Below are positions 16,893 through 20,580 of a DNA stretch of 53,433 bases, one piece after another (the first letter of the stretch is position 1; every line of letters starts with the position of its first letter). The notes beneath the pieces were generated by a model. The model saw nothing but the letters and a program-made list of their open reading frames with translations. It did not search any database and was not told the origin of the DNA. The stretch lies in assembly GCF_011603255.1 (NCBI RefSeq), contig NZ_JAANCM010000021.1, positions 1 through 53,433 of the forward strand. The letters are read 5' to 3'. The position numbers were made by a program, and so were the translations under genes. This DNA is from Ferranicluibacter rubi (GTDB taxonomy: Bacteria > Pseudomonadota > Alphaproteobacteria > Rhizobiales > Rhizobiaceae).

Positions 16893-17501
16893 TCAGAGCG
16901 CGCGGATGATCGTGCGCAGGGCGTCGTTGCGGGCGCCCAGCATCAGCACGTTCTTCAGGGCCGTCTTCGGGTCCTGCGTGCGGAAAAGGAGGCCGCCGTC
17001 GCGGACGGTCCGGTTGATCACGAGCTTGCCCTGCTCGCGGTCGAGGTCCATCGCGACGGCGAAATACATGCGCGAATATCCGCGGCGGACATCGTCGAAG
17101 AAGTGTTCGTCCTTGCCGATCTCGCAGAAGAAGTTGGCCATGTAGAACGACCAGCGGACATCGTCGTAGTCCGCGAATTTGGTGCGCGCTGCCGTCACAT
17201 GACAGTAGCCGAGATGCGGGCTGCCATCGAGCGTGCGGTGGAAGATCATCTTGGGAAAGCGGATCGACGCGTGGAAGCCGTTGATGCGGTCGTAGGCGAG
17301 CGTGCCGGCGGCCTCCAGCTTGCGGCCCGTGCGCTCGGCCACTTCCTTGTGCGTCAGGTAGCGCTTTGCGGCGCGCGCCTCGGACGTCTGGCGGTTGATC
17401 CGGCCGGTGCGGAGGTAATCCGTGTACACGCCCCCGCGTGGTTCCTTGGGAGCCTTGGCATCATCGAAGTAGCGCAGGTTGGCCATGGTCTGGTCCAGCA
17501 T
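16893..17501 (-). CDS. Conserved protein of unknown function
   Basis: The 202-residue protein begins MLDQTMANLRYFDDAKAPK, with AAAAGGAAG upstream supporting this start; an internal ATG at codon 6 is possible. It has no signal peptide or membrane helix. Conserved-looking parts are HLGYCHVTAARTKFADYDD and WSFYMANFFCEIGKDEHFF. I do not recognise a characterised family; it may be one of the rhizobia-specific DUFs. Codon use matches neighbouring core genes, so it is probably real and native. Confidence 0.75.
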   Translation of the reverse strand: MLDQTMANLRYFDDAKAPKEPRGGVYTDYLRTGRINRQTSEARAAKRYLTHKEVAERTGRKLEAAGTLAYDRINGFHASIRFPKMIFHRTLDGSPHLGYCHVTAARTKFADYDDVRWSFYMANFFCEIGKDEHFFDDVRRGYSRMYFAVAMDLDREQGKLVINRTVRDGGLLFRTQDPKTALKNVLMLGARNDALRTIIRAL

Positions 17502-17804
17502 GGATGATCTTCCTTTTGCATGGTCTTACGGGCCCGCCATGGCGCGAGGCTTGCGTCATCCGGCCATTCGCCGCCGGGGATGGCGGCAGGGGCGCGCTCC
17601 TCGATGTCGCAAATGCGCACCCGGCAGCGACGCATCGGCCTGACCGGAAAAGCGACATCTGCCGAAATTTCGTACATCTCGTTGTTTATCTTGAAGGATC
17701 GACGCACGAAGCCGCAAAAATGGTCCGCAAATGCGCGTGTCGTCTTTCTCAAATCGCGTGTCGCTTCTTGGCCTCTGAAATCGGCCGGCGCGGCGTTAGA
17801 GTGA
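17502..17804. other. Intergenic region ahead of the riboswitch
   Basis: About 300 bases lie between the leftward gene start at 17501 and the riboswitch. The part from 17640 to 17790 is AT-richer and probably contains the promoter for the rightward riboswitch transcript. Leftward open frames here have no family similarity and run into the next gene in the wrong frame, so I do not call a gene. Confidence 0.45.
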
Positions 17805-17975
17805 GAGGCTCAAGGCACCGGTTTCAAAGGGATCCGGAGACATTGGGAAGCCGGTCGAAACCCGGCGCTGCGCCCGCAACGGTGGTGGAGCATGAAGCCG
17901 GCAGATCCTTGTCAGGGGTTAAGCATCCCCAGGGTCGGCATGGCGAGATGCCCCTGAGCCCGGACACCTGTCTTG
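17805..17975 (+). promoter_or_regulatory. Cobalamin riboswitch
   Basis: The conserved core is clear: TTGGGAAGCCGGTCG, AAACCCGGCGCTGCGCCCGC and AACGG correspond to the family's GGGAA, paired GCCGG/CCGGC and GCTG-CCCCGCAAC elements. The downstream AGCCCGGACACCTGTC takes the place of the B12 box. Such riboswitches bind adenosyl- or methylcobalamin and usually switch expression off when the cofactor is plentiful. The next gene on the strand is a Rieske demethylase about 180 bases away, with IS-end-like repeats between. Boundaries are approximate. Confidence 0.85.
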
Positions 17976-17980
17976 GGGCG

Positions 17981-18025
17981 ATGTGACGGACTTTGATGTG
18001 CCAATGTTACGGACTTTGATGTGAA
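17981..18025. repeat. Direct repeats resembling an IS terminus
   Basis: ACGGACTTTGATGTG occurs at 17986-18000 and again at 18009-18023, a period of 23 bases, each followed by a similar base context. Closely spaced terminal repeats like these are known at the ends of IS21-family elements. No transposase is present, so this would be a remnant end. The assignment is an inference. Confidence 0.45.
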
Positions 18026-18158
18026 TGTCTGGGTGCGGCGGGTTGCCGGGTGTGAGCTTCGAAGGGCTTTCCCGGCCATACCAGCCCTGAAGTTGGCCTG
18101 TAGCGGGCCTTGGGATTGCGACCTCTTGGCGAGGTCCGTGGGATAAAGGAACGGGAAC

Positions 18159-19403
18159 ATGGATTTTCGCAGCGAAGTGCTCCGCACGCTCCGGAACCGG
18201 CGCGAGACCCACAGCCTCGAGCAGGCATTCTACACGGATCCCGATCTCTACAAGCTCGACCTGCAGGAGATCTGGTACAAGGACTGGCTCTTCATCGGCC
18301 ATGACTGCGAGATCCCCAAGGCCGGCAACTATTTCACGGTCCAGATCGGCGATTATCCCGTCGTCATCACCCGCGACCGCCAGGGTGCCATCCATGCCCT
18401 GCACAATGCCTGTCGCCACCGCGGTTCGCGCGTCTGCACGCAGGCCAAAGGCGCCTCGGCGCGGCTCGTCTGTCCCTATCACAACTGGACCTACGAGCTG
18501 GACGGCAAGCTGATGTTCGCCCGCCAGATGGGCGAGGACTTCGACAAATCCGCCCACGGCCTCAAGCCCGTCGCCTGCGAGACCATTGCCGGCTACATCT
18601 TCATCAGCCTGGCCGCCGAGCCGCTGGATTTTGCGCCCGTGCGCGACATGGTCACGTCCTACCTCGCGCCGCACAATCTCAAGGACACGAAGGTCGCGTT
18701 CGAAAGCACCATTGTCGAGAAGGGCAACTGGAAGCTTGTCTGGGAAAACAACCGCGAGTGCTACCACTGCGCCAGCAACCACCCGGAGCTCTGCCGCACC
18801 TATCCCGAGGCGCCGTCGGCAACCGGCGTGCAGGGTGCCAAGGACGATCCCGTCATCTCCGAGCATTGGAGCCGCTGCGAAGCCTCCGGTCTGCCAAGCG
18901 AATTCCGCATCGATGCGACGGGCCAGTTCCGCGTCGCCCGCATGCCGCTTATTCAGGATGCCGAAAGCTACACCATGTCCGGCGCCCGCGCCGTCAAGCG
19001 CCGCCTGTCCGACGCCGTGCCCCAGAGCCATATCGGCACGCTGCTGATGTTCCATTACCCAAGCACCTGGAACCATGTGCTGGCCGACCACGCCATCACC
19101 TTCCGCGTGCTGCCGCTCGGGCCCGAACTGACGCAGGTCACCACCAAGTGGCTGGTCCACAAGGATGCCGTCGAGGGTGTCGATTACAATCTCGAGGAAC
19201 TGACCCACGTCTGGACCGAGACCAACGATCAGGACCGCCAGATCGTCGAGGAAAACGCCTTCGGCATCCGCTCGCCGGCCTATGAGCCCGGCCCTTACTC
19301 GCCCGAGCACGAAGGCGGCGTCATGCAGTTCGTCGAGTGGTACACGAACTTCATGCAGGAGCGCCTGACGGGCGTCCGCGCGCCGCTCGTGCGCGTGGCC
19401 TGA
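18159..19403 (+). CDS. Rieske-type demethylating oxygenase (GbcA-like)
   Basis: This is the terminal oxygenase of a two-component Rieske system, 414 residues. The Rieske centre is CRH and CPYH in NACRHRGSRVC and LVCPYHNWTYELDG (about residues 85-115). The mononuclear iron site is in ENNRECYHCASNHPE (about 200-215). These features fit glycine betaine monooxygenase GbcA and stachydrine demethylase Stc2, which release formaldehyde from quaternary amines. I cannot separate these substrates by eye. AAAGGA lies eight bases before the ATG. The reductase gene follows after one base, so the two form an operon, possibly under the upstream cobalamin riboswitch. Confidence 0.9.
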   Translation: MDFRSEVLRTLRNRRETHSLEQAFYTDPDLYKLDLQEIWYKDWLFIGHDCEIPKAGNYFTVQIGDYPVVITRDRQGAIHALHNACRHRGSRVCTQAKGASARLVCPYHNWTYELDGKLMFARQMGEDFDKSAHGLKPVACETIAGYIFISLAAEPLDFAPVRDMVTSYLAPHNLKDTKVAFESTIVEKGNWKLVWENNRECYHCASNHPELCRTYPEAPSATGVQGAKDDPVISEHWSRCEASGLPSEFRIDATGQFRVARMPLIQDAESYTMSGARAVKRRLSDAVPQSHIGTLLMFHYPSTWNHVLADHAITFRVLPLGPELTQVTTKWLVHKDAVEGVDYNLEELTHVWTETNDQDRQIVEENAFGIRSPAYEPGPYSPEHEGGVMQFVEWYTNFMQERLTGVRAPLVRVA

Positions 19404-19404
19404 C

Positions 19405-20580
19405 ATGAGCCAGACAAGCATGGGCCAAGGTATGGGCGTGGGCCAAGGCATGGTTCAGGGAACCGGTATCGTGTCGCCGTTCCGTCACTTCGACGAACTC
19501 CAGCCCTGGAACGATCGCCAGCACCTGCTCGAATGCATCGCGGTGACGCTCGAGGCGCCCGACGTCATGACCTTCGTGTTCAAGTCGGATCGCGACGGCT
19601 GGTTCCGCTACCTGCCGGGCCAGTTCGTCACGCTCGAAATTCCGGTGACGGCCGACAATCCGGTGATGCGGACCTACACGCTGTCCTCGACACCCTCGCG
19701 CCCGTTCTCCATCGCCGTCACGGTGAAGGCGCAGGCGACGTCGATCGGCACCCGCTGGATGTTCGACAACCTGCGTCCCGGTATGACGCTGAAGGCCTTC
19801 GGCCCGCTCGGCGACTTCTCATTCGTGCGCTATCCCGGCGAGAAATACCTGTTCGTCTCTGCCGGCTCCGGCATCACGCCGATGATGTCGATGACGCGCT
19901 GGTTTTCCGATTGCGCGCCGCAGACCGATGTCGCCTTCGTCTCCTGCGCCCGCCGACCCGACGATCTGCTGTTCCGGGCCGAGCTGGAAACACTTAGCCC
20001 CGGCATGCCGAACCTGTCGCTCGGCTTCGTCGTGGAAGGCCACGAGCCCCGCCACGGCTGGCACGGCCTGCGCGGCCGCATCGATGCCGCCAAGGTGGCG
20101 CTGCTGACGCCCGATTTCATGTCCCGAACGGTGTTCTGCTGCGGTCCCGAACCGTTCATGCGCGGCGTGCGCGAACTGCTGCAGGCATCCGGCTTCGACA
20201 TGGCCCGCTACCACGAGGAAAGCTTCCAGCCGGCGGCAGCCCCTAACGTCGATGAACTCGCCGTCCGCGCCGGTCCTGGCGATGCTGCCGGCGAGGCCGA
20301 TACCGACCAGCCGATCGTCGCCCCCACCATCACCTTCACCATGGCCGGCAAGGACGCGAAATGCATCCCCGGCCAGACCGTCCTCCAGACCGCCCGCGCC
20401 GCCGGCGTGCGCATCGGCGCCGCCTGTGAAAGCGGCCTCTGCGGCACCTGTCGCGTCATGAAGATCTCGGGCGAGGTCGAGATGAAACACAATGGCGGCA
20501 TCCTCGACGAGGACATCGAAGAAGGCTACATCCTCGCCTGCTGCTCCCGCCCGCTGACGGACGTGCAGATCGAGGCTTGA
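19405..20580 (+). CDS. Ferredoxin-type reductase of the Rieske system (GbcB-like)
   Basis: The 391-residue protein passes electrons from NAD(P)H to the oxygenase. An FAD domain carries RTYTLSSTPS (about 95) and an NAD domain FVSAGSGITPMMSM (about 150) and FCCGPEPFM (about 250). A C-terminal plant-type 2Fe-2S domain has CESGLCGTC with a last cysteine in ILACCSRP. The linker before it is Ala/Gly/Pro-rich. An unusual N-terminus repeats MGQGM/VGQGM, which may be a mis-set start; a later GTG (V in GIVSPF) is possible. It begins one base after the oxygenase stop. Confidence 0.9.
   Translation: MSQTSMGQGMGVGQGMVQGTGIVSPFRHFDELQPWNDRQHLLECIAVTLEAPDVMTFVFKSDRDGWFRYLPGQFVTLEIPVTADNPVMRTYTLSSTPSRPFSIAVTVKAQATSIGTRWMFDNLRPGMTLKAFGPLGDFSFVRYPGEKYLFVSAGSGITPMMSMTRWFSDCAPQTDVAFVSCARRPDDLLFRAELETLSPGMPNLSLGFVVEGHEPRHGWHGLRGRIDAAKVALLTPDFMSRTVFCCGPEPFMRGVRELLQASGFDMARYHEESFQPAAAPNVDELAVRAGPGDAAGEADTDQPIVAPTITFTMAGKDAKCIPGQTVLQTARAAGVRIGAACESGLCGTCRVMKISGEVEMKHNGGILDEDIEEGYILACCSRPLTDVQIEA

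Follow-up and report, generated by a model that had tools for sequence, protein, structure and literature searches.

Why would a riboswitch that senses cobalamin (vitamin B12) stand ahead of an oxygenase operon whose products resemble quaternary-amine demethylases? The question is raised by a 53,433-nucleotide stretch of DNA from Ferranicluibacter rubi (Rhizobiaceae; contig NZ_JAANCM010000021.1 of a 5.47 Mb genome assembly), which we analyzed at its full length and call the window. The initial annotation offered two answers: that the operon provides a route that does not need B12 and is turned off under ample cobalamin, or that the original target gene was lost and the riboswitch is an orphan. 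Among orthologues of the operon, we found that a full riboswitch tracks the B12-dependent methyltransferase MttB/MtgB, and we think it rather probable that the operon is an oxygen-dependent, B12-free stand-in for the Mtg route of betaine demethylation and is off when B12 is ample. For the orthologues the first answer has the best support; the window departs from it in an informative way.

The riboswitch and the operon behind it

The operon and its leader contain the following features.

17738..17763, + strand: direct repeat TGTCG-N16-TGTCG found by pattern search, a candidate activator or operator site
17796..17989, + strand: cobalamin riboswitch aptamer (Rfam RF00174), in a derived form
17981..18000 and 18005..18024, + strand: two copies of a 20-base unit, a local tandem duplication (six-genome alignment)
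18145..18155, + strand: ribosome binding site AAAGGAACGGG of the oxygenase gene, read from the sequence and conserved in the six-genome alignment
18159..19403, + strand: Rieske-type oxygenase of the group V quaternary-ammonium type ("ardX", GbcA/Stc2-like), 414 amino acids (PF00355, PF00848, NF058607)
19405..20580, + strand: reductase with flavin (FAD), nicotinamide (NAD) and 2Fe-2S modules ("frdX", GbcB-like), 391 amino acids, same operon (PF00970, PF00175, PF00111, NF058606)

We take ardX-frdX to be the older name of the SMc00982 operon of Sinorhizobium meliloti. The riboswitch core that had been annotated ahead of the operon was borne out by the covariance model, which matched over its full length with a score of 61.7 bits and an E value of 6.4e-13 (gathering score 31.5), 169 bases ahead of the oxygenase/reductase pair; this was the sole gathering-level Rfam match in the window. 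The annotation of a GbcA/Stc2-like oxygenase and its reductase on the same strand also held: the reductase reading frame begins one base past the oxygenase stop codon, and almost the entire length of each protein aligns with its model (GbcA for the oxygenase, GbcB for the reductase), at scores below the equivalog cut-offs. Pfam places Rieske and Ring_hydroxyl_A domains in the oxygenase and FAD_binding_6, NAD_binding_1 and Fer2 domains in the reductase. The Rieske ligands of the oxygenase are C85/H87 and C105/H108, and an ECYHC motif is formed by E200-C201-Y-H-C204. By sequence, then, it has the C-H/C-H ligands, the catalytic domain and the Cys-X-X-Cys pair beside the iron site that characterize group V Rieske oxygenases, and it is likely to be a quaternary-amine demethylase. 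Such a Cys-X-X-Cys pair is described for some group V enzymes in the accessible part of PMC10952381.

The layout is widely shared. We compared 80 orthologous loci on genome contigs, the best 80 of a longer list. A sequence pattern for the aptamer core matched 67 of them, with the core beginning 250–336 bases before the start codon, and missed 13; Rfam recovered the riboswitch in three of the latter (L083, L086 and L095), so that it precedes the operon in 70 of the 80. In the remaining 10 loci Rfam gave no cobalamin match, and six of the ten were also searched at a permissive threshold. A DUF6656 gene is a neighbor in 72 loci and the reductase in 76 (at the clustering used), and the order DUF6656 < riboswitch > oxygenase is common to most of the set. 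We also drew 297 genomes across the family. The orthologue was present in 120, and the 105 of these that were not in the earlier sets were examined by sequence pattern; 75 carried the riboswitch and 30 did not, and a recheck of all 30 negatives with Rfam gave no cobalamin match up to an E value of 1. G137 and G141, which the pattern missed in part, and G122 scored 112.5, 68.8 and 105.6 bits, respectively.

These results dispose of the orphan. Orthologous operons do not consistently lack the riboswitch, as the comparison of synteny proposed with the annotation makes clear, and its retention in 70 of 80 loci among shared neighbors speaks against a remnant of a lost gene's leader. The repeats that had been described as resembling the ends of an insertion sequence are the two copies of the 20-base unit. 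The copies are spaced 24 bases apart; the unit occurs twice in the window's genome (G000) and in G004 and once in G001, G002 and G005 (G003 differs); G001–G005 are the five closest genus mates. Doubling in some of these genomes and not in others marks a local duplication in the leader, and an insertion-sequence junction was ruled out together with the orphan.

The association itself is not new. For S. meliloti, the accessible part of PMC2573895 shows SMc00983 and SMc00982 in the same divergent layout together with a cobalamin riboswitch, and a riboswitch upstream of SMc00982 is also listed in that of PMC2245857; these listings date from 2007–2008. What is new here is that a full riboswitch tracks MttB/MtgB.

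Co-occurrence with a B12-dependent betaine route

The proposed partner, MtgBCDE glycine betaine methyltransferase, would bring about the same net demethylation as the operon and is cobalamin-dependent by homology. According to the available text of PMC12478193 (2025), Ruegeria pomeroyi requires MtgC and MtgD to demethylate glycine betaine and to synthesize methionine, MtgBCDE and the cobalamin operon are colocalized in S. meliloti, and multiple MttB-like proteins may act on other methylated compounds. From earlier work the paper cites a bmt mutant of S. meliloti that still used betaine if methionine was supplied, and it assigns this second route to Mtg. The ardX operon may be a further betaine route beside Bmt and Mtg, one that is free of B12.

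We looked for MttB/MtgB (PF06253) in three groups of genomes. The near-relative set comprises the window's genome and 60 relatives, 61 in all; an orthologue of the oxygenase at a level of at least 66% identity occurs in 17. Five of these have a full riboswitch (86–116 bits), six have a weak one (G000–G005, 36–62 bits), and six have none, including G006, the seventh genus member examined. At an E-value limit of 1e-3, MttB was present in 5/5, 0/6 and 1/6 of these groups, respectively, the single genome in the last group being G006. At the same limit, we tested 50 of the 80 loci on genome contigs, namely the 13 without a pattern match and 37 of the 67 with one, with the window's genus excluded; one of the 50 genomes (L068) was assembled from a metagenome and measures 3.4 Mb. 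MttB accompanied the riboswitch in 40/40 and its absence in 3/10 (Fisher p 1.2e-6). In the family genomes, at a limit of 1e-190, the counts were 50/50 and 2/30. The remaining riboswitch-bearing family genomes, whose riboswitch state had been called before the MttB search, all had MttB (25/25, limit 1e-225). With limits this strict, distant MttB-like proteins would not show in the 28 family genomes without a match.

Two further proteins of the route behave in the same way. MtgC and Bmt, distinguished from MetH by score and frame length, are present in the six close relatives that have MttB and absent from the other eleven. The Bmt proteins of the six are 74–80% identical to that of G034 (G034 itself apart). 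In that genome, MttB shares a stretch of 20 kb with a B12-binding protein, a homocysteine S-methyltransferase and a RACo reactivase. Seven of the eleven Bmt-less genomes have another PF02574 protein (193–202 bits) that is 25–29% identical to Bmt, and G009 and G017 carry a protein of this type in addition to Bmt.

Could the operon instead make or remodel cobalamin, for example through lower-ligand or corrin chemistry, and carry the riboswitch for that reason? Most known cobalamin riboswitch targets are synthesis and transport genes, and the two other cobalamin riboswitches elsewhere in the window's genome precede such genes, a CbtA-like cobalt transporter gene and a cobP/cobW-like operon, as we read them from the open reading frames alone. 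The oxygenase, however, is closest to stachydrine and glycine betaine demethylases and has the ECxxC pair of group V, and the riboswitch on the operon tracks a methyltransferase. Moreover, a cobalamin riboswitch is found somewhere in 57 of the 61 near-relative genomes and on the ardX operon in 11. We regard a role in making cobalamin as very improbable.

A further concern is that relatives share history, so that a plain p-value overstates the association. The riboswitch and MttB might both be ancestral and have disappeared, independently of each other, from the same few lineages, in which case their co-occurrence would be a phylogenetic accident. On a tree of the proteins, from which seven identical sequences had been removed, each trait changed 10–11 times; seven independent supported pairs could be drawn, of which on average 4.9–5.5 changed in the same direction and 0.0 in the opposite one (median p 0.03–0.06). 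These values leave room for an accident. Three observations speak against it. When two more identical proteins were removed and all sets were pooled, MttB accompanied the full riboswitch in 112/112 distinct cases, the absence of a riboswitch in 6/42 and the altered form in 0/6, so that no full riboswitch occurs without MttB and 36 of the 42 riboswitch-less orthologues lie in genomes without it. Both traits switch together within small groups: in g72, G282 has neither and G127 and G219 have both, and in g131, G186 and G365 have neither and G314 has both. Finally, MtgC and Bmt follow MttB in the 17 close relatives. We consider an accident of descent quite unlikely.

We return to the stand-in for the Mtg route. 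As we picture it, the operon would encode an oxygen-dependent, B12-free quaternary-amine N-demethylase whose substrate would be glycine betaine or a similar compound, for example proline betaine, and in Rhizobiaceae it would replace the route made up of the MttB/MtgB methyltransferase, the MtgC corrinoid protein and Bmt/MtgE. The leader would be transcribed from a promoter ahead of the aptamer; bound cobalamin would fold the aptamer onto a downstream hairpin, P13, and expression would fall, so that the oxygenase would be made under B12 shortage. In this scheme we infer which amine is the substrate, which way control runs, and what promoter and expression platform are used.

Several results weigh against the scheme. 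The tree-based test is only borderline and draws on few independent events. Six orthologues without a riboswitch lie in genomes that have MttB (G006, L088, L094, L104, G181 and G252; the oxygenase locus of G006 is G006:C1:2776312-2777553). The oxygenase scores 522.8 bits on the GbcA model NF058607, where the equivalog cut-off is 670, and the reductase 384.8 bits on the GbcB model NF058606, where it is 500. We found no sigma-70-type promoter and no intrinsic terminator in 17500–18170. MttB is absent from all six genomes of the window's clade (G000–G005) in spite of their riboswitch matches, as are MtgC and Bmt, so the pairing fails at the window's own locus. The annotated idea of a B12-independent route that ample cobalamin shuts off fits the orthologues best, whose full riboswitch goes with MttB and Mtg, and lacks its B12-dependent partner in the clade from which it was drawn.

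MetE was considered as the partner and rejected: 14 of the 17 orthologue-bearing close relatives have no PF01717 match, and the matches in G014, G034 and G036 (23–118 bits, frames of 343–473 amino acids) compare with 505–508 bits for typical MetE in G012 and G041. MetH is split in G000–G005, with the homocysteine and B12-binding parts in separate frames (374–379 versus 917–2137 amino acids; locus G000:C37:1929-4130); in G006 both parts lie within one frame of 1269 amino acids. At each of two places on contig C1 of G067 (L049), an MttB homologue is split into two pieces and looks like a broken gene; an intact copy accompanies them.

The altered riboswitch of the window's clade

The riboswitch of G000–G005 can be divided into the following parts.

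17843..17895, + strand: aptamer core, TTGGGAAGCCGGTC...GGTGGTGGAGC, 51 of 53 columns invariant in G000–G005
17896..17948, + strand: peripheral arm, 21 of 53 columns invariant in G000–G005; the GCCACTG...GGGAAGG element seen in orthologues is missing
17949..17978, + strand: B12 box and 3' strand of the closing stem, with AGCCCGGACACCTGTC in place of AGCCCGGAAACCAGCC, 25 of 30 columns invariant
18026..18053, + strand: P13-like hairpin with loop GGCGG, a putative kissing partner of L5 (CCCGC), supported by covariation of the stem in other clades

To describe how far it departs from the others, we used 88 columns that are at least 95% conserved in 141 other ardX riboswitch rows, which were drawn from both locus sets and include some genomes twice. 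In G000–G005, 24–28 of the 88 are changed (24 in the window), whereas 127 of the 141 other rows have at most one change and the most deviant, G141, a genome with MttB, has 16. G001–G005 score 36.1–61.3 bits, against the 86–116 bits of the five full-riboswitch relatives. The changes include C>G in L5 at 17872 and, in the B12 box, differences from other clades at 17965, 17969 and 17971. The GCCACTG...GGGAAGG arm, absent from all six genomes, is conserved in four other clades (22/22, 22/26, 19/25 and 20/26), in which core and arm are conserved together.

The kissing interaction of L5 with P13 is one that we assume from known cobalamin riboswitches. In the other clades the P13 stem takes 28 distinct forms, with five of six pairs always paired and three pairs changed on both sides; the best-pairing match was taken in each row, which favors pairing, and one row (G141) has no such loop. 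In G000–G005 the stem is altered. The locus of G141 (L225) has CCTAGC for CCCCCGC in L5, no recognizable GGCGG loop, a score of 68.8 bits and MttB in its genome, and it may hold a kissing pair that changed together.

A riboswitch this altered may be vestigial: once Mtg was gone, control by B12 would be useless, the element would decay, and the promoter and a regulator acting at the TGTCG repeat would alone drive the operon. MttB, MtgC and Bmt are missing from G000–G005, the changed columns and low scores fit such decay, and so does the fact that most riboswitch-less orthologues lie in genomes without MttB. Against this, the core is invariant at 51/53 columns in G000–G005, compared with 123/231 in the 5' intergenic region (Fisher p 1.8e-10) and 260/414 at third codon positions (p 9.4e-8), and by our reading of the alignment the pairs of the closing stem are kept through changes at 17816 and 17971. 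Since the core is conserved among the six genomes, we keep plain neutral decay as a rival and do not adopt it as the principal reading; it seems to us a real possibility that falls short of probable.

Rather, the alignment suggests that the riboswitch changed fast on the way to this clade and that its core was then held. On our best reading the core is still under selection, so that the riboswitch probably still senses a corrinoid, with its affinity or output altered. The change may have come with the loss of the Mtg module, as their occurrence in a shared clade suggests; in G006, which stands closest on the tree, the module is present and the riboswitch is absent. A more specific version holds that after the loss of Mtg the riboswitch was remade: it shed the arm, changed the B12 box and L5, and was then kept by selection as a compact aptamer that differs in corrinoid preference, affinity or output. 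We offer this version as doubtful, if possible. If it is true, the clade provides a natural case of a riboswitch re-tuned upon loss of its metabolic partner. The full, altered and absent riboswitches form a natural series in which a regulatory RNA changes once its metabolic reason goes.

Control of the operon and comparison with known systems

The output step of the riboswitch is unlikely to be direct masking of the ribosome binding site by P13, because the hairpin lies about 100 bases ahead of that site; Rho-dependent termination or a long-range fold would be possible. The TGTCG repeat lies within 600 bases upstream in 72 of the 80 loci on genome contigs, including nine of the ten without a riboswitch, which suggests that the operon may also be controlled in a second way. 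In the family sample it lies within 500 bases upstream in 45 of 105 loci, against 0.08 of 105 in base shuffles of equal length. An attempt to read a regulon from the repeat was abandoned: a tighter pattern gave ten exact matches in the genome, and its reversed form gave nine, too small a difference to be informative. The accessible part of a paper on an AraC-type regulator (PMC8151288) held nothing useful on the motif.

The arrangement resembles that of metE, the B12-independent isozyme of MetH, in which a B12-free enzyme stands behind a cobalamin riboswitch and the B12-dependent partner is encoded in the same genome; for the window's genome and G001–G005 there is no such counterpart. Unlike metE, the ardX step would be demethylation of a quaternary amine by an oxygenase and not methionine synthesis, and the one-carbon products of the two routes would differ. 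A metE riboswitch of Mesorhizobium is listed in the accessible part of PMC5948670.

The S. meliloti SMc00982 locus shares the layout of the window, and an S. meliloti record contains a protein 74.6% identical to the oxygenase. The riboswitch there is a prediction only, and the accessible parts of PMC2573895 and PMC2245857 propose neither a function nor a partner; SMc00982 is called a likely dioxygenase in that of PMC2848018. A literature search that lay mostly outside subscription papers found no link between a cobalamin riboswitch and betaine demethylation, nor did the accessible part of a review (PMC8123684). Our proposal would give a role to an operon whose riboswitch has appeared in lists since 2007 with no function assigned. 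It would also bring B12-free betaine demethylation to rhizobia and tie the breakdown of an osmolyte to vitamin supply. Methionine synthase and ribonucleotide reductase are known to exist in B12-dependent and B12-independent forms, and the Mtg route and the ardX operon would make a further such pair.

The oxygenase resembles two characterized enzymes. It shares with the GbcAB glycine betaine monooxygenase its domain make-up, its near whole-length match and the combination of oxygenase and reductase; unlike GbcAB, the window's pair falls below the NCBI equivalog cut-offs and has a riboswitch ahead of its operon. Its nearest solved chains by sequence are 3n0q, 3vca and 4qup, the second and third of which we take to be the stachydrine demethylase Stc2 of S. 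meliloti, and the window's oxygenase and Stc2 share the ECxxC motif. The pSymA protein of S. meliloti 1021 that is presumably Stc2 is 56.5% identical to the window's oxygenase over residues 5–403, and the latter is a separate paralogue. Ten paralogues of 34–55% identity were scanned as candidates for the true GbcA, and none reached the GbcA cut-off.

Among the nearest named records, the oxygenase is 100% identical in Rhizobium sp. PP-CC-3A-592, 99% in Rhizobiales isolate AFS017967, 98% in Rhizobium sp. NFR03 and 96% in Leaf371. Downstream of the reductase gene and convergent with the operon, the window encodes a glycosyl hydrolase family 25 protein (PF01183; 20659–21714, − strand).

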